NCBI GenBank assembly: GCA_020355945.1
Contig: CP070627.1
Location: 5,396,534 to 5,402,501 of the forward strand
Direction: 5' to 3'
From: Candidatus Aminicenantota bacterium
Lineage (GTDB): Bacteria > Acidobacteriota > Aminicenantia > UBA2199
DNA length: 5,968 bases
In this document: in pieces, positions 1 to 5,968 of the stretch
How positions within the stretch are numbered: position 1 is the first letter of the stretch
How the letters are laid out: each line of letters opens with the position of its first letter
Notes under the pieces: generated by a model
What the model saw: only the letters and a program-made list of their open reading frames with translations
Told to the model about the DNA's origin: nothing
The model's database searches: none
Program-made: the position numbers and the translations under genes

Positions 1-3000
1 CTAGCCGACAGCGGAACAAAAATCTTACTGGCTGCGCCAGAGACTCAGGCTAAGGTTAAGGCTGAGGTTAAGGAGAAATTTATAGACATTATAGATATTT
101 CCAACCTATCATCTTTCTCAACCTTAACCTCAACCTTAACCTGCCAGGTGAGTCCCAGGAACGTGGCTTACGTCATCTACACCTCAGGAACCACCGGTAA
201 CCCCAAAGGCGTGATGGTGACCCATCAAAATGTTACCAATCTTGTTTTGGGTTTAAAAAACAGGATATATGTTTCTTATAATAAACCATTGGCAGTTTGT
301 CTAATCGCTCCCTATGTGTTTGATGCCTCAGTTCAGCAGATATTCGCCACCCTGGTCCTGGGGTACAGTTTATATATTGTACCGGGATATGTGAGAGTGG
401 ATGGATTAAAATTGGTTGAATTCTATAAGAGGTATAATATTGACATCTCAGATGGAACACCCACACACCTCCGTTTGCTCCTTGAAAACATTAACCTCAA
501 TGACAATGAAAAAACTGTAAACCTGGAAATAAAACATTTTATTATCGGTGGTGAAGAACTACCCCGGGAAATCGCAAAAAACTTTTTAAATCGTTTCGGA
601 GCAAAAGGATTAGTGATTACAAATGTTTATGGCCCTACAGAATGTTGTGTGGATTCAACATCTTATGATATCTCTAAAGAGAATGTGGATAACCATACGA
701 ATCTTCCTATCGGCATTCCCATGCCGAACCAGCAGGTATATATAGTGGACAACCACAATAATTTGCAGCCAATTGGAGTTAGCGGGGAATTGTGCATCGG
801 GGGGGTGGGAGTTTCCCGGGGTTATTTAAACCGACCGGAACTAACCGCAGAAAAATTTGACTGCAAAAACTTTTTACTAAAGGGAACAAGGGGGCTTGCC
901 CCCTTGTTAAAAAGAAAAAAAGTGCCAGGCAAAAGAATCTACACACATATGTCACATATGTCCTATATGTCCTATATGTCCTATATTTACCGAACCGGTG
1001 ACCTGGCAAAATGGTTGGCTGATGGTAATATCGAATTCCTCGGCCGAATGGATCATCAAATCAAAATCCGCGGCTTTCGCATCGAATTGGGAGAAATCGA
1101 AAGTCAATTATCGAAACACCCTGAAATTAAAGAGGCCCTGGTTTTAGCCAAAGGAGATGATGACGATAAATATCTCTGCGCTTATATTGTCTTCAACAGG
1201 GCAGAGAGGGTTGACAAATCAGCTTTAATCTCTTCGGAATTAAGAAAGCATTTATTACAATCATTGCCGGATTACATGATACCCTCCTATTTTGTGAATC
1301 TGGAAAAAATCCCCATGACTCCCAGCGGTAAAATCGATCGCAAAGCACTGCCGAAACCTAAACCGGAAATTGGACAAGGCTATATCGCTCCCAGGGACAC
1401 AGTTGAAAAGAGATTGGCAGAGCTGTGGTCAGGAGTCCTGGGCATCGAAACCCATCTCATTGGTATTGACAGCAACTTTTTTCAACTGGGAGGCCAATCG
1501 TTAAAAGCCACGGTATTGACTGCCAAAATGCACAAGAGCTTTGACGTAAAAGTACCGCTGGCGGAGATTTTTAAAACCCCCACCATCAGGGGTTTGTCAG
1601 GATATATAAAAGAAGCCGCCCCGGATAGATACCAATCAATAGAACCGGTAGAAAAGAAAGAATATTATGGACTCTCCTCCGCTCAGAAACGGTTGTATAT
1701 TTTGCAGCAAATGGAATTGGCCAGTACAGCCTACAATATGCCTTATTTCATCCCCCTGTCCCATGATATCACCACCGAGCAATTGGAAAAAACCTTTATG
1801 AAGTTGTTGGAACGGCACGAAAGTTTAAGAACCTCGTTTTTTATGATCGATGAAGAACCGGTACAAAAAATTCACAATAAGGTGGAATTTACCATCCGGT
1901 ACTATCGCTATCAAAAACCCGCCCGGATGGAAGCAGATAAAAAAGCAGCAGAGGAGAATCTCCCCCACCTGGATATGAACAACGAACTGGAAAGAAGCAG
2001 GCGGGATTTTATAAAACCCTTTGATCTATCTCAAGCCCCTCTCCTGAGAGTGGTGCTGGTGGAACCAGGAGAAGAGGCTTTTCCACGCATCCTCTTCCTG
2101 GATATGCATCACATCATATCTGATGCTGTCTCTTTCCAAATACTGGAAGAAGATTTTAAAGCACTTTACAACGGTAAAACCTTAACACCCCTGCCAATTC
2201 AATATAAAGATTTTGCCCTGTGGCAAAATAAAGAAAAGCAAAAGAAATACATGAAACAGCAGGAAAGCTACTGGCTCGGGCAATTTGAAGGAAAGATAAC
2301 ACAATTGGACCTGCCAACCGATTATCCCAGGCCCGAAGTCCAACTTTTTACGGGGCGCACCCTTTATGATGAGATACCCTGTAATATCAATGCATTAAAG
2401 ACGATTGCCCTGGAGAATAAAGCCACCCCCTTCATGGTATTATTGGCCATTTTTTATGTATTTTTATCTAAAATAAGTGGCCAGGAAGATATCATCGTGG
2501 GAACCCCGGTGGCAGGACGAACCCATACGGACCTGGAAGGTATAATAGGATTCTTTGTTAACTCCCTGGCCCTGAGAAACAGACCAAAAAGAGAAAAAAC
2601 CTTTGTTGAGTTCTTAAAAGAAGTCAAGGAAAGAACTTTGGAAGACTTTGATAACCAGGATTACCAGTTTGAAAACCTGGTGGAAAAATTAGCTGTGAAA
2701 CGGGACAAGCATAATCCACTATTTGATGTCATGTTTACATGCCAGGACAAGGGAACTGAGCCCGGCGATGACACCGAAATAACCGATGACAGCAGCAAAG
2801 ACGAACCCAAAAACCAATCGTTACATGAAAACGAACCGGGAATCTCAAAATTTGATCTCTATTTAAATATAACCATTGAAAAAAAACTGCTCTTCTCATT
2901 TGAATATAGTACGGAACTGTTTCGACCGGAAACCATCAAATTCTTTGCCAATGGTTTTAAAGAAATTGTAGTATCTGTCTTAGCAGATAAAAATATTAAA

Positions 3001-3084
3001 CTGGAAGACATCAAGATGCCAACCAGGTTATTGGATAGTGATTTAAGAGGTCTCCAGGAAAAACTAACCACCCTGGAGTTTTGA
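1..3084 (+). CDS. Nonribosomal peptide synthetase, A-T-C module (5' partial)
   Basis: Part of a multidomain cytoplasmic enzyme that activates an amino acid as AMP-ester, loads it on a phosphopantetheine arm and forms a peptide bond. The frame is open from base 1 to TGA at 3082-3084 (1027 codons seen; the true start lies upstream). Counting codons from base 1, the order is: adenylation domain (codons 1 to about 455, entering near the LADSG segment after core A2), carrier domain (about 463-535, Ser500 in LGGQS), and full condensation domain (about 545-990), then a short tail. The C domain is C-terminal, so it should pass the chain to the amino acid loaded by the protein encoded just downstream; gene order and the 7-base gap support one operon. 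Pocket residues suggest glutamine. Oddities: repeat-derived inserts in two A-domain loops, charged inserts in the C domain, and HHxxxDA instead of HHxxxDG. NRPS identity is certain; product and organism are not. Confidence 0.97.
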   Translation, partial: LADSGTKILLAAPETQAKVKAEVKEKFIDIIDISNLSSFSTLTSTLTCQVSPRNVAYVIYTSGTTGNPKGVMVTHQNVTNLVLGLKNRIYVSYNKPLAVCLIAPYVFDASVQQIFATLVLGYSLYIVPGYVRVDGLKLVEFYKRYNIDISDGTPTHLRLLLENINLNDNEKTVNLEIKHFIIGGEELPREIAKNFLNRFGAKGLVITNVYGPTECCVDSTSYDISKENVDNHTNLPIGIPMPNQQVYIVDNHNNLQPIGVSGELCIGGVGVSRGYLNRPELTAEKFDCKNFLLKGTRGLAPLLKRKKVPGKRIYTHMSHMSYMSYMSYIYRTGDLAKWLADGNIEFLGRMDHQIKIRGFRIELGEIESQLSKHPEIKEALVLAKGDDDDKYLCAYIVFNRAERVDKSALISSELRKHLLQSLPDYMIPSYFVNLEKIPMTPSGKIDRKALPKPKPEIGQGYIAPRDTVEKRLAELWSGVLGIETHLIGIDSNFFQLGGQSLKATVLTAKMHKSFDVKVPLAEIFKTPTIRGLSGYIKEAAPDRYQSIEPVEKKEYYGLSSAQKRLYILQQMELASTAYNMPYFIPLSHDITTEQLEKTFMKLLERHESLRTSFFMIDEEPVQKIHNKVEFTIRYYRYQKPARMEADKKAAEENLPHLDMNNELERSRRDFIKPFDLSQAPLLRVVLVEPGEEAFPRILFLDMHHIISDAVSFQILEEDFKALYNGKTLTPLPIQYKDFALWQNKEKQKKYMKQQESYWLGQFEGKITQLDLPTDYPRPEVQLFTGRTLYDEIPCNINALKTIALENKATPFMVLLAIFYVFLSKISGQEDIIVGTPVAGRTHTDLEGIIGFFVNSLALRNRPKREKTFVEFLKEVKERTLEDFDNQDYQFENLVEKLAVKRDKHNPLFDVMFTCQDKGTEPGDDTEITDDSSKDEPKNQSLHENEPGISKFDLYLNITIEKKLLFSFEYSTELFRPETIKFFANGFKEIVVSVLADKNIKLEDIKMPTRLLDSDLRGLQEKLTTLEF
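53..142. repeat. Inverted repeat in the A2-A3 loop (21-base arms)
   Basis: Arms 53-73 and 122-142 are reverse complements at 20 of 21 positions (position 62 is the exception and would still pair as G-U in RNA), with a 48-base spacer. The left arm is built of 6-base units (GTTAAG, GCTGAG and variants, coding AKVKAEVK) and the right arm of 12-base units (coding STLTSTLT). It lies within the coding frame, between the LADSG segment and motif A3, a loop that varies among adenylation domains. Confidence 0.85.
118..141. repeat. Perfect 12-base tandem direct repeat
   Basis: TCAACCTTAACC occurs twice in a row (118-129, 130-141) and codes STLT-STLT. The second NRPS has one near copy (TCAACCTTAACG, 4277-4288) in the same frame and the same loop, also coding STLT. 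Confidence 0.85.
842..909. repeat. Dispersed 68-base block with palindromic core, copy 1
   Basis: Matches 5004-5071 in the second NRPS gene at 65 of 68 positions, with mismatches at 859, 860 and 877. Flanking A-domain sequence is much less alike. The core 885-908 is an inverted repeat: AACAAGGGGGC (885-895), TT, then its exact reverse complement (898-908), giving a 10-base-pair GC-rich stem with a CTTG loop. It is read as KGTRGLAPLL inside the A6-A7 loop. Weaker A/T-rich complementarity outside the core suggests a longer imperfect palindrome in this copy. Confidence 0.9.
946..990. repeat. 9-base in-frame tandem repeat before motif A7
   Basis: Four units of (C/T)ATATGTC(A/C) (946-954, 955-963, 964-972, 973-981) and a degenerate fifth (982-990) code HMS-HMS-YMS-YMS-YIY, directly before RTGDL. 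The unit length is a multiple of three, so changes in copy number keep the frame. The second NRPS lacks this array at the equivalent position. Confidence 0.9.
1387..1605 (+). other. Peptidyl carrier (thiolation) domain
   Basis: Carrier domain that holds the activated residue on a phosphopantetheine arm. It starts at the PRDTVEKRLAELW helix and contains DSNFFQLGGQSLKA, with Ser500 (codon from base 1; bases 1498-1500) as the attachment site. The final helix ends near IFKTPTIRGLSGYI. The linker between the first helix and the FF(Q/E)LGG motif is short (LGIETHLIGID), unlike the downstream carrier domain, which has seven extra residues there. Confidence 0.92.
1651..2985 (+). other. Condensation domain, complete, HHxxxDA variant
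   Basis: Forms the peptide bond between the residue on the preceding carrier and that of the next module. All seven cores can be read: C1 LSSAQKRLYILQQ, C2 RHESLRTSF (codons 605-613), C3 MHHIISDAVS with catalytic His704 (codons 702-711), C4 YKDFALWQ, C5 IGFFVNSLALRN, C6 NQDYQFENL and C7 RDKHNPLFDVMF. No epimerisation domain precedes it, so an LCL type is inferred. Motif C3 ends in DA rather than DG. There are two charged inserts: about codons 638-664 before the PFDLSQAPLLRV strand, and an acidic one at about 916-947 after C7. The protein ends about 35 residues after this domain, so its acceptor module must lie on another polypeptide. Confidence 0.92.
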
Positions 3085-3087
3085 GGT
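3083..3087 (+). promoter_or_regulatory. Ribosome binding site of the second NRPS gene
   Basis: GAGGT overlaps the stop codon of the upstream gene and lies 4 bases before ATG 3092. The spacing is short for a Shine-Dalgarno site, but stop, GAGGT and start in a row fit translational coupling between the two NRPS subunits. No promoter can fit in the 7-base gap. Confidence 0.6.
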
Positions 3088-3091
3088 AATA

Positions 3092-5968
3092 ATGAGGAAT
3101 AAAAATCCAAAAGTGGCAAAAGAGCGTAAAATGGTGAATAACCAGGAGTATTCCCAAATTGCCCTGGCGGCTAAACAAAAAATTAAAGAAAGGGACTACT
3201 GGCTAAATAAATTATCAGGAGAACTTATAAAAAATTATTTCCCACCGGATTACCCCAGGAATAAAAACAAAAGAAAAATAGAAATGATCCCATTCCAATT
3301 TCCGCCCTCGGGTTTTTCAAGCTTAATGAAAGTGATCGATAATTCTGATCTTAAAATGCACATCATCCTGGCAGCAGCAGTGATGGTACTAATATATAAA
3401 TATACAGGTAATAACGATATCACCATTGGTACCCCCATATACAAACAGGATATCGAAGGTAATTTTATCAATACGGTTTTGATTCTAAGAAATTATATTA
3501 AACAGGATATGACATTTAAAGAACTGTTATTAGAAATGAGACAGACCATCCTGGAAGCAGCCGAAAACCGAAATTATCCGGTGGAAATATTAGCAATGCA
3601 GTTAAATAAACTATATTCCCCGGGAGATGATTTCCCTTTATTTGATGTTACCATTTCAGTTGAAAATATCCAGGATAAAAAATACCTTCAGCGCCTTCTC
3701 ACCAATACCGGTTTTTCTTTTTTAAGAACCGAAAAAAATATTGAAGGAATCCTGGAATATAATGCAGGAATTTACCAGGAAACAACAATCCGAAGAATTA
3801 TTCATCACTTTATACGACTGGTCCAGGAGGTAGTGGTTAACCTGGAATTAGAATTGTCGCAAATCGATATACTTTCCCAACAGGAAAAAGCACAGATATT
3901 AATTGACTTTAATGATACAAAAGCAGATTATCCCCAAAAAACCATCGATGAATTATTCGAGGAGGAAACTGCCAAATCACCGGATAAAATAGCCCTATCC
4001 TATGAAAACCAACAGTTTACTTACAACCAATTGGATGAAGAAGCCCATCAATTGGCCTCTTATCTCTATCTCCTGGGAATAGAAGCCGAGGAACCTATTG
4101 CATTGATGGCAGGGAATTCTCATAAAGTCATTGTGGCTCTCCTGGCCATCCTAAAAGCCGGAGGCACCTATTTACCTTTAAATGTCGACTATCCTCAAGA
4201 AAGAAAAAAATATATAATAAAAGATTCCAATACCAGGCGATTATTAACCAATTGTAAAGAAGCGCGGCAGTATGTTTCAACCTTAACGGTCATTGACCTG
4301 GAAAATCAGTCTATTTTCAGGCCTCAAGAAAACTTTTGCAGAAAACATACCAACGATCATTTGGCTTACATCATGTACACCTCAGGTTCCACCGGTAATC
4401 CCAAGGGTGTGATGGTGAAACACCGGAATGTGGTTCGCTTAGTGAAAAACACCAATTATGTCGAGTTTAATCAAGGTGATCGTGATCGTATTTTACTGAC
4501 CGGTGCCCTGGAATTTGATGCTTCCACGTTTGAGATATGGGGTGCTCTTTTAAACGGGTTAACCCTGCACCTGGCCAGCAAGGATACGATTCTAAGCCAT
4601 GACCGGTTAAAACAGTGTATACGAAGAAATAGTGTGACCACCATCTGGATGACCGCCCCCCTGTTCAACCAGATGTTGGATGCGGATATCGAGATTTTCC
4701 ACGGGCTTCGGAACCTGTTGGTGGGAGGGGATGTGTTGTCTCCCGTCCATATCAACCGATTGAAGGCGCGTTTTCCAGCCCTGAAGGTTATCAATGGTTA
4801 TGGACCGACAGAAAATACCACTTTCTCTACCACTTATTGTATAAATAAAACCCACCAGGAAAATATACCCATTGGTAAACCCATTCGTAATTCCAGCGCA
4901 TACATCCTGGATTGTTTCTATAACCTGGTTCCCATTGGTGTTGTCGGAGAACTTTTTGTCGGAGGTGACGGATTGTCCAGGGGTTATCTCAACAACCCGG
5001 AATTAACCGCAGAAAAATTTTGCTGCAAAAACTTTTTAATAAAGGGAACAAGGGGGCTTGCCCCCTTGTTATATGCCAGCTTGTTATATCGCACCGGTGA
5101 CCTGACCCGGTGGCTGCCGGATGGCAATATCGAATTTTTAGGACGCATGGATCATCAAGTGAAAATCAGGGGATTCCGTATTGAACCCGGAGAAATAGAA
5201 ACTTATTTGCTCAATCATGAAAAGATAAAGGATGTCGTGGTGGTGACCCTGGACCAGGCAACCCCTGCAGGAGGAAGCGACAAATATATTTGCGCTTATA
5301 TTGTCCCTGGAAAAGAGCTTCTTACTGCTGAAATCAGGGATTATTTATCCCAACATTTGCCAGGATATATGATACCTTCTTATTTTGTCCCCCTGGAAAA
5401 GCTGCCCCTAACACCCAATGGCAAAATAGATCGAAAGGCCTTACCTGTCCCGGTGGGCCAAAGACAGGACCGCTCTACCCCTCCCCGGGATACCATTGAA
5501 CTAAAATTGGTAAAAATATGGTGCCAGGTATTAGGTAGAGACGCATTGCATGCGTCTCAATTACGCACATCCCTGGGCATTGATGATAATTTCTTTGAAT
5601 TGGGAGGCCATTCATTAAAAGCCACCGTATTGGTATCAAAGATACATAAAGCACTGGACGTACAGGTTCCCCTGGTTGAAATTTTTAGAATCCCTACTAT
5701 CAGGGACCTGGCACAATATATAAAAGAAGCAAAAAAAGACAGATATGTTACCATTGAATCTGTGGAAAAAAAGGAATACTATGCCTCATCTTCCGCTCAG
5801 AAACGATTGTATATTCTTCAACAAATGGAATCTGATAATATCAGTTATAATATTCCCTATATCATCCCATTGGAAGAATATATTGACAGAGAGAGACTGG
5901 AAGATACATTCAAAAAAATTATTTCCCGTCATGAAAGTTTACGAACCTCATTTGAAATAGTAGACCAG
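3092..5968 (+). CDS. Nonribosomal peptide synthetase, half-C-A-T-C (3' partial)
   Basis: Second NRPS subunit, 959 codons without a stop up to the window edge, so the 3' end is missing. ATG 3092 is chosen because an in-frame stop (TAA 3065-3067) precedes it, no other ATG lies between, and a GAGGT sits just upstream. Domains by residue: basic leader (1-35), C-terminal half of a condensation domain (about 36-251, without the HHxxxDG half), adenylation domain (about 284-790), carrier domain (about 798-870, Ser841 in LGGHS), and the start of a new condensation domain (from about 896, with SSAQKRLYILQQ and RHESLRTSF). Pocket residues suggest valine. It follows the upstream NRPS gene by 7 bases and is surely co-transcribed with it; the upstream C domain is the likely partner that condenses onto its loaded residue. 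Oddities: the truncated leading C domain, a 21-base palindrome in the carrier domain, a repeat element shared with the upstream gene, and Pro instead of Leu in motif A8 (FRIEPGEIE). Confidence 0.96.
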   Translation, partial: MRNKNPKVAKERKMVNNQEYSQIALAAKQKIKERDYWLNKLSGELIKNYFPPDYPRNKNKRKIEMIPFQFPPSGFSSLMKVIDNSDLKMHIILAAAVMVLIYKYTGNNDITIGTPIYKQDIEGNFINTVLILRNYIKQDMTFKELLLEMRQTILEAAENRNYPVEILAMQLNKLYSPGDDFPLFDVTISVENIQDKKYLQRLLTNTGFSFLRTEKNIEGILEYNAGIYQETTIRRIIHHFIRLVQEVVVNLELELSQIDILSQQEKAQILIDFNDTKADYPQKTIDELFEEETAKSPDKIALSYENQQFTYNQLDEEAHQLASYLYLLGIEAEEPIALMAGNSHKVIVALLAILKAGGTYLPLNVDYPQERKKYIIKDSNTRRLLTNCKEARQYVSTLTVIDLENQSIFRPQENFCRKHTNDHLAYIMYTSGSTGNPKGVMVKHRNVVRLVKNTNYVEFNQGDRDRILLTGALEFDASTFEIWGALLNGLTLHLASKDTILSHDRLKQCIRRNSVTTIWMTAPLFNQMLDADIEIFHGLRNLLVGGDVLSPVHINRLKARFPALKVINGYGPTENTTFSTTYCINKTHQENIPIGKPIRNSSAYILDCFYNLVPIGVVGELFVGGDGLSRGYLNNPELTAEKFCCKNFLIKGTRGLAPLLYASLLYRTGDLTRWLPDGNIEFLGRMDHQVKIRGFRIEPGEIETYLLNHEKIKDVVVVTLDQATPAGGSDKYICAYIVPGKELLTAEIRDYLSQHLPGYMIPSYFVPLEKLPLTPNGKIDRKALPVPVGQRQDRSTPPRDTIELKLVKIWCQVLGRDALHASQLRTSLGIDDNFFELGGHSLKATVLVSKIHKALDVQVPLVEIFRIPTIRDLAQYIKEAKKDRYVTIESVEKKEYYASSSAQKRLYILQQMESDNISYNIPYIIPLEEYIDRERLEDTFKKIISRHESLRTSFEIVDQ
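3197..3850 (+). other. Truncated condensation domain (C-terminal half only)
   Basis: Residues about 36-251 of the second NRPS align with the second half of the upstream C domain. The DYWLNKLSGEL and DYPRN segments match ESYWLGQFEGK and DYPRP there; NFINTVLILRN (from residue 124) matches C5, ENRNYPVEIL matches C6 and PLFDVTISVEN matches C7. The first half, with C1, C2 and the catalytic HHxxxDG, is absent, and the frame upstream of the ATG is closed, so it has not simply been missed. It cannot catalyse condensation by itself. Such half domains occur at the head of some NRPS proteins; here a structural or docking role is the likeliest inference. Confidence 0.85.
3941..5461 (+). other. Adenylation domain, predicted valine-activating
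   Basis: Complete adenylation domain. Cores by residue: A1 FTYNQLDEEA (309), A2 AILKAGGTYLPL (352), A3 YTSGSTGNPKG (429-439), A4 FDAS (475-478), A5 NGYGPTE (568-574), A6 GELFVGGDGLSRGYL (619), A7 YRTGDL (666), A8 GFRIEPGEIE (694), A9 LPGYMIPSYF and A10 GKIDRKALP with Lys778. The pocket, aligned by eye to GrsA, is D476, A477, F480, W519, L543, G545, G569, T577, F578, K778. This is one residue (L for I) from the valine code DAFWIGGTFK of gramicidin and surfactin synthetases; Ile or another branched residue is the alternative. The A8 Pro replaces the usual Leu. A palindromic repeat copy forms the A6-A7 loop. Confidence 0.93.
5004..5071. repeat. Dispersed 68-base block with palindromic core, copy 2
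   Basis: Second copy of the block at 842-909, at the same place of the A domain and in the same reading frame, again coding KGTRGLAPLL. The inverted-repeat core is 5047-5070 (arms 5047-5057 and 5060-5070), identical base for base to copy 1. Sequence after the core differs from copy 1: this copy returns to the YRTGDL motif after a few residues, while copy 1 continues through a 9-base tandem repeat. Confidence 0.9.
5483..5737 (+). other. Peptidyl carrier (thiolation) domain with linker insert
   Basis: Carrier domain with Ser841 (bases 5612-5614) in DDNFFELGGHSLKA as the phosphopantetheine site. The first helix (ELKLVKIWCQVLG) is followed by a linker of 12 residues before LGID, where the upstream carrier has five before IGID. 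The extra length equals the 21-base inverted repeat at 5538-5558. Confidence 0.9.
5538..5558. repeat. 21-base inverted repeat in the carrier-domain linker
   Basis: Arms GAGACGCA (5538-5545) and TGCGTCTC (5551-5558) are exact reverse complements around a TTGCA loop. It codes most of RDALHASQ. Removing it joins A with AA into an AAA codon, leaves the frame intact, and gives a linker of exactly the length found in the upstream carrier domain. Confidence 0.8.
5765..5968 (+). other. Condensation domain, N-terminal start only
   Basis: The window ends inside this domain. C1 (SSSAQKRLYILQQ) and C2 (RHESLRTSF, residues 946-954) are present and closely resemble those of the upstream complete C domain. 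It implies that at least one more module, on this or another protein, follows the valine module. The usual Leu before SSAQ is Ser here. Confidence 0.9.

Follow-up and report, generated by a model that had tools for sequence, protein, structure and literature searches.

How two NRPS genes came to carry the same palindromic block, in the same reading frame and at the same loop of their A domains, is the question raised by the locus studied here, a stretch of 5,968 nucleotides from a Candidatus Aminicenantota bacterium (contig CP070627.1, positions 5,396,534 to 5,402,501; hereinafter the window). An earlier note on this DNA had described the block and interpreted it either as a small mobile element that NRPS loops tolerate or as a homology tract promoting recombination between modules, and had likened it to the RPEs of Rickettsia.

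Two NRPS genes with the same block

Each of the two ORFs of the window carries one copy of the block.

1..3084, + strand: ORF 1, NRPS module A-T-C (PF00501, PF13193, PF00550, PF00668), with the first element copy in the A6-A7 loop; its 5' end is beyond the window
3092..5968, + strand: ORF 2, half a C domain, then A-T and the beginning of another stretch (Pfam), with the second element copy; its 3' end is beyond the window
842..909, + strand: 68-base block, copy 1, made up of host codons (LTAEKF) and the insert, 65/68 identical to 5004-5071
5004..5071, + strand: 68-base block, copy 2, 65/68 identical to 842-909

Compared at the offset of 4162 at which 65 of the 68 bases agree, the two genes share 56/84 bases in the left flank (758-841 and its counterpart at copy 2) and, in an ungapped comparison of the right flank, 6/22 bases at 909-930 (909 being the last base of the block) and 8/30 bases at 931-960. 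On its right side, the block ends abruptly. Both copies are translated in one frame, as CKNFL(L/I)KGTRGLAPLL, and in both ORFs the element follows GELCIGG or GELFVGG (A6) and precedes YRTGDL (A7). The A-T regions have 236 of 452 aligned residues in common (52% identity), and the residues at the specificity positions are unlike (FDASVQ..YGPTECCVD vs FDASTF..YGPTENTTF), presumably resembling Gln and Val codes. These comparisons bear out what the earlier note had reported of the pair, namely block identity of 65/68 with more diverged flanks, translation in the same phase as KGTRGLAPLL between A6 and A7, and different A-domain substrates, the last as far as the specificity-position residues are concerned.

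ORF 2 opens (window 3092-3900) with the second half of a C domain only, the best stretch covering profile positions 185-456 and the HHxxxDG half being absent; among eight proteins scanned, a comparable start is seen, in the listed stretch, in P0064, P0121 and P0051 (P numbers denote members of the set of related proteins described below).

The hairpin and its minimal unit

Within each block lies a perfect hairpin, embedded in a slightly longer coding unit.

885..908, unstranded: hairpin core, copy 1 (inverted-repeat search, RNA folding)
5047..5070, unstranded: hairpin core, copy 2 (inverted-repeat search, RNA folding)
880..906, + strand: minimal common unit, copy 1, KGTRGLAPL, the peptide common to three loops, frame checked
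5042..5068, + strand: minimal common unit, copy 2, KGTRGLAPL, the peptide common to three loops, frame checked

The core, AACAAGGGGGC-TT-GCCCCCTTGTT, is the same in both copies, just as claimed earlier for the 24-base palindrome; its 11-base arms are 100% complementary across a 2-base spacer, and the folding z scores of the RNA hairpins are -3.07 and -2.88, with 1 and 2 of 200 shuffles folding equally well. Rfam gave no match. In both window copies, AAAGGGAA stands before the 20-base core, and both contain the unit of about 27 bases, AAGGGAACAAGGGGGCTTGCCCCCTTG, with the peptide (K/E)GTRGLAPL; all six frames of this unit are stop-free. About 27 bases, not 68, make up the common unit, because only (K/E)GTRGLAPL is common to different loops (the variants GTGG, GTKG, GAGG and TGLAPL counted). 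The figure of 68 bases counts host codons: LTAEKF, in the left part of the block, is a host motif, as is YRTGDL after it. Thus, the 68-base element of the earlier note stands as a block and gives way in its extent. With linear gramicidin synthetase as the reference, the linker of copy 2 (TAEKF...YRTGD) is 12 residues longer at the element site. A structure model of the A domain, considered for loop placement, was too poor (mean pLDDT 72.8, below 50 at the loop) and was set aside.

The same peptide in three loops of related proteins

The set of related proteins combines 120 listed of 7995 matches with 14 listed from a second search, giving 133 distinct sequences (P0027 was in both); Candidatus Aminicenantes is named in 5 rows of the first list and 8 of the second, and many rows are named otherwise. 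The peptide (K/E)GTRGLAPL is present in 19 copies in 16 of 135 proteins (133 related and the two of the window), and neither these counts nor the single frame are to be read as frequencies, given that both protein queries contained the peptide (P0121-P0133 came from the second search). The copies fall into three loops:

A6-A7 loop, 11 copies: P0019, P0027, P0104, P0121-P0126 and both window copies
C-domain loop, 5 copies, before F(I)RPFDLS or alike: P0027, P0125, P0129, P0130, P0131
A1 loop, 3 copies: P0101, P0129, P0133

Nine of the 14 database proteins with the peptide are labelled Candidatus Aminicenantes, the other five being JGI entries, and a contig of 9,131,798 bases is given for each of seven proteins (P0027 and P0121-P0126). 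Pfam domain bounds match the placing in loops for the window copies and the seven proteins scanned, with the exception of P0131, the C domain of which was matched as three stretches, the single listed one coming after the copy.

The recurrence between loops was also apparent in a motif-blind comparison of 337 loops, drawn from 130 proteins (A6-A7, 169; C, 28; A2-A3, 47; A1, 93), which were extracted with regular expressions, so that loops missed by the expressions, including the C loops of P0125 and P0129, were dropped. Of 6356 different six-residue words, 13 were shared between loop classes, and 9 of these 13 are pieces of the peptide, the other four being SSFIIH, SYMSYI, EGEKVR and GEKVRR; GTRGLA itself was found in 14 of the 337 loops. 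Together with the three-loop distribution of one in-frame peptide, this supports the view that NRPS loops tolerate a palindromic element that is translated, as the earlier note had proposed.

None of the 133 proteins contains the peptides that other frames would give (GACPL, GLPPC, GASPL, GKPPC); where G(Q/R)APL was matched, the context showed an ordinary motif. P0027, P0125 and P0129 each have a second copy that may have played no part in recruitment, and all three of these are in the same frame, a hint of a frame preference of the element. A search for non-NRPS copies in the Aminicenantes-like lineage found none among four candidates, none of which scored, which is weak evidence from proteins of about 192-612 residues. 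The hairpin is known as DNA for two copies and the remaining copies are known as protein; we infer that the latter are encoded by this same DNA sequence, that the hairpin is mobile at the DNA level, and that the enzymes remain functional.

Other repeats in the loops

Further repeats are found in the same loops and at the edge of the element.

5059..5088, + strand: 15-base tandem duplication at the 3' edge of copy 2 (APLLY-ASLLY; 5059-5073 vs 5074-5088, 87%), linking the hairpin to host YRTGD
947..982, + strand: 9-base tandem repeat (MSYMSYMSY) in the same ORF 1 loop, after copy 1 (repeat search)
46..143, unstranded: second inverted repeat, in frame and built of 12-base units, located in the ORF 1 loop before A3 (arms 46-72/117-143, 81% complementary)

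The duplication at copy 2 consists of the 3' half of the hairpin and the next codons and reads LLYASLLY; at the same site, P0122, P0124 and P0027 have APLLYAPLLY. The inner arms of the inverted repeat (53-73 and 122-142) are 95% complementary, and the folding z score for 45-150 is -5.81. Its units are CTCAACCTTAAC, and STLTST-type peptides before A3 are also found in P0027 (twice), P0131 and P0133; a VKVEVE-type peptide, which the opposite strand of such a repeat could give, is present in the C loops of P0129 and P0130. Counted by pattern over the 135 proteins, the repeat types number 10 (SYxSY), 7 (HSSFVI type), 7 (PMTND type, including a match in P0048 that is N-terminal and probably unrelated) and 5 (LTSTST type). 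A longer A6-A7 linker, CLRRPGG.F.KK.PPWTP.KNFLL, precedes the hairpin peptide in P0104 and is similar in P0122, P0124 and P0132, in the last of which it is followed by a variant without GLAPL; this linker, known as protein only, may be a second hairpin. The repeat types of these loops are presumably intergenic repeats elsewhere. The NRPS loops look like general sinks for repeats; the translation of the hairpin in one frame in several of them suggests that they tolerate and accumulate repeat DNA.

The core in other genomes

The 20-base core, CAAGGGGGCTTGCCCCCTTG, occurs in at least 120 genome-contig stretches from many phyla; among the matches listed, none of the titles of the 120 stretches names an Acidobacteriota or Aminicenantes genome. 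Unrelated bacteria and archaea, among them Methanoregula, Bacteroidales and a betaproteobacterial MAG, carry it in multiple copies. In 19 genomes, all chosen for having the core, it was counted 1 to 42 times per genome, and the reversed-pattern control 0 times in each. Shared descent across phyla was weighed as an origin of the core; its flanks are lineage-specific, which leaves room for convergence towards a stable hairpin as well as for exchange long ago. Of 140 cores (loci L001-L121), 32 lie in stop-free frames of at least 200 codons vs 323 of 390 random positions in the same loci. Elsewhere, then, the core mostly avoids long frames and is read in several frames when inside one; therefore, its habit in NRPS genes is not the rule. 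In one Bacteroidetes locus (L018), the core is read in frame as TRGLAPL in a SpoIIE-type phosphatase, beside a 13-residue gap of the aligned 6k4e.

Viral contigs yielded one copy of the core in a different context, no longer form of it and no relative of P0121, along with 14 distant NRPS loci at identities of at most 43%; the 68-base block had no match in plasmids. The transposase domain PF01797 was detected in 11 of the 19 core-bearing genomes vs 5 of 14 controls, which is not decisive for a link to RAYTs, and among the matches listed, two genomes have a core with a Y1 match no more than 0.5 kb away (G009 contig 56 and G013 contig 236), the former site being, by position, locus L052. Two Eco57I/MmeI-type restriction-modification ORFs of Bacteroidales MAGs, in L052 (2883-6767, - strand) and L003 (187-3948, - strand), contain an in-frame Y1_Tnp match (residues 640-754 and 626-686, respectively) and carry several palindrome peptides in frame, in frames unlike the NRPS one, one of them inside the Y1 match of L052 (residue 714).

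Insertion, copying and the competing explanations

Identical codons encode 20 of the 21 residues that the two window A domains share within the block vs 105 of 215 outside it, and the host codons TAEKF are the same in 5 of 5; furthermore, the linker of P0121 is nearly identical to the whole linker of copy 2. Because codon sharing extends into TAEKF, the longer 68-base block probably results, on this sequence evidence, from copying of the loop between modules, and for this pair the codon counts lend partial support to the recombination tract of the earlier note. Gene conversion or module duplication alone, by which one ancestral A6-A7 loop, with a functional peptide or not, would have been copied without any mobile element, would account for these observations and for the homologous placing of all 11 A6-A7 copies. 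As a full explanation we nevertheless regard it as unlikely: the peptide is also found in C-domain and A1 loops with unrelated flanks, and a single ancestral loop does not suffice because exchange by homology can place a loop only at its equivalent position. Similarity produced in this way alone would be confined to homologous positions of paralogous modules, and the peptide occupies three non-homologous loops.

Less probable again, and in our view improbable, is that (K/E)GTRGLAPL is a selected functional loop motif, for example for docking or flexibility, with the DNA hairpin as a by-product. Selection on the peptide would fit the single frame of 19/19 copies, when the 27-base unit has no stop in any of its six frames, and the retention of the frame in the second copies of P0027, P0125 and P0129; however, the frame count is biased by recruitment, most of the loops examined do without GTRGLA, other repeats (SYxSY, HSSFII, PMTND) occupy the same loops, and the peptide does not require a 24-base palindrome. 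General slippage or repeat growth in permissive linkers, with the hairpin as a slippage product and no transfer between sites, is suggested by the 9-base and 15-base tandem repeats and by the several repeat types in the same loops, but it cannot yield the same eight residues at three unrelated sites, and we consider it highly improbable.

We therefore favor, with a probability of roughly 0.66, a REP-like coding hairpin in NRPS loops that spread to several loops and was later copied among modules. According to this scenario, a REP-like hairpin of about 27 bases would enter NRPS genes of Aminicenantes-like bacteria at several insertion-tolerant loops, and in-frame copies would survive since these loops are permissive; later, whole loops would be copied between modules via duplication or gene conversion, giving the 68-base block. 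The hairpin itself could be moved by a RAYT-type single-strand transposase or by replication template switching at hairpins. A wider generalization, which we advance tentatively and at somewhat below even odds, is that a handful of loops serve as landing pads for several in-frame repeat families (the hairpin, CTCAACCTTAAC-type inverted repeats, 9-base SY repeats, and the HSSFII, PMTND and ATEDTENTE types), which later act as homology tracts aiding module exchange.

Comparison with known palindromic elements

Intragenic REPs and RPEs are already known across varied unrelated genes; titles and abstract starts in the open-licence literature yielded no prior report of such repeats in NRPS or in Aminicenantes. 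Here, a single gene family with many homologous loops per genome would make insertion tolerance and frame choice measurable, as well as the role of repeats in the reshuffling of peptide-synthetase modules, and the element points to loops that might accept inserted sequence in NRPS engineering.

In the review PMC10969869, RPEs are described as elements of about 150 bases lying in frame inside Rickettsia genes, and in PMC3733652, REPs are described as 20-40-base sequences tagged with GTAG or CGTC, some of them intragenic, with mention of flexible linkers or loops. The NRPS hairpin is like an RPE in being a palindromic repeat in frame within genes and seemingly tolerated there. Unlike the approximately 150-base RPE with its conserved longer peptide, the NRPS unit has about 27 bases; its host is Aminicenantes-like and its copies are seen in NRPS genes only, in contrast to the unrelated genes of Rickettsia; and the R. 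conorii RPE sequences, as given there, end in CGTC, which the NRPS hairpin lacks. Accordingly, the resemblance to RPEs proposed in the earlier note extends to behaviour, that is, to tolerated in-frame residence in genes, and not to membership, given the size, the tag and the host. Intragenic MITEs, as described in PMC10969869, offer a further likeness, small palindromic DNA giving rise to translational fusions, whereas the window element is without a longer body between terminal inverted repeats and a target duplication was not seen.

With REPs, as described in PMC3733652, the hairpin has in common its form, a single hairpin of 20-40 bases, and a core that in other genomes is multicopy and mostly outside long frames, intragenic REPs in loops being discussed in that source. 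It differs from them in that GTAG and CGTC are both absent beside the window hairpin, in the flanks of both copies; GTAG precedes 2, CGTC 0 and any TAG 12 of the 140 cores elsewhere. Because the tags do not agree, and for RPEs the size does not either, we file the NRPS hairpin as neither an RPE nor a REP; in behaviour it resembles RPEs and intragenic REPs.
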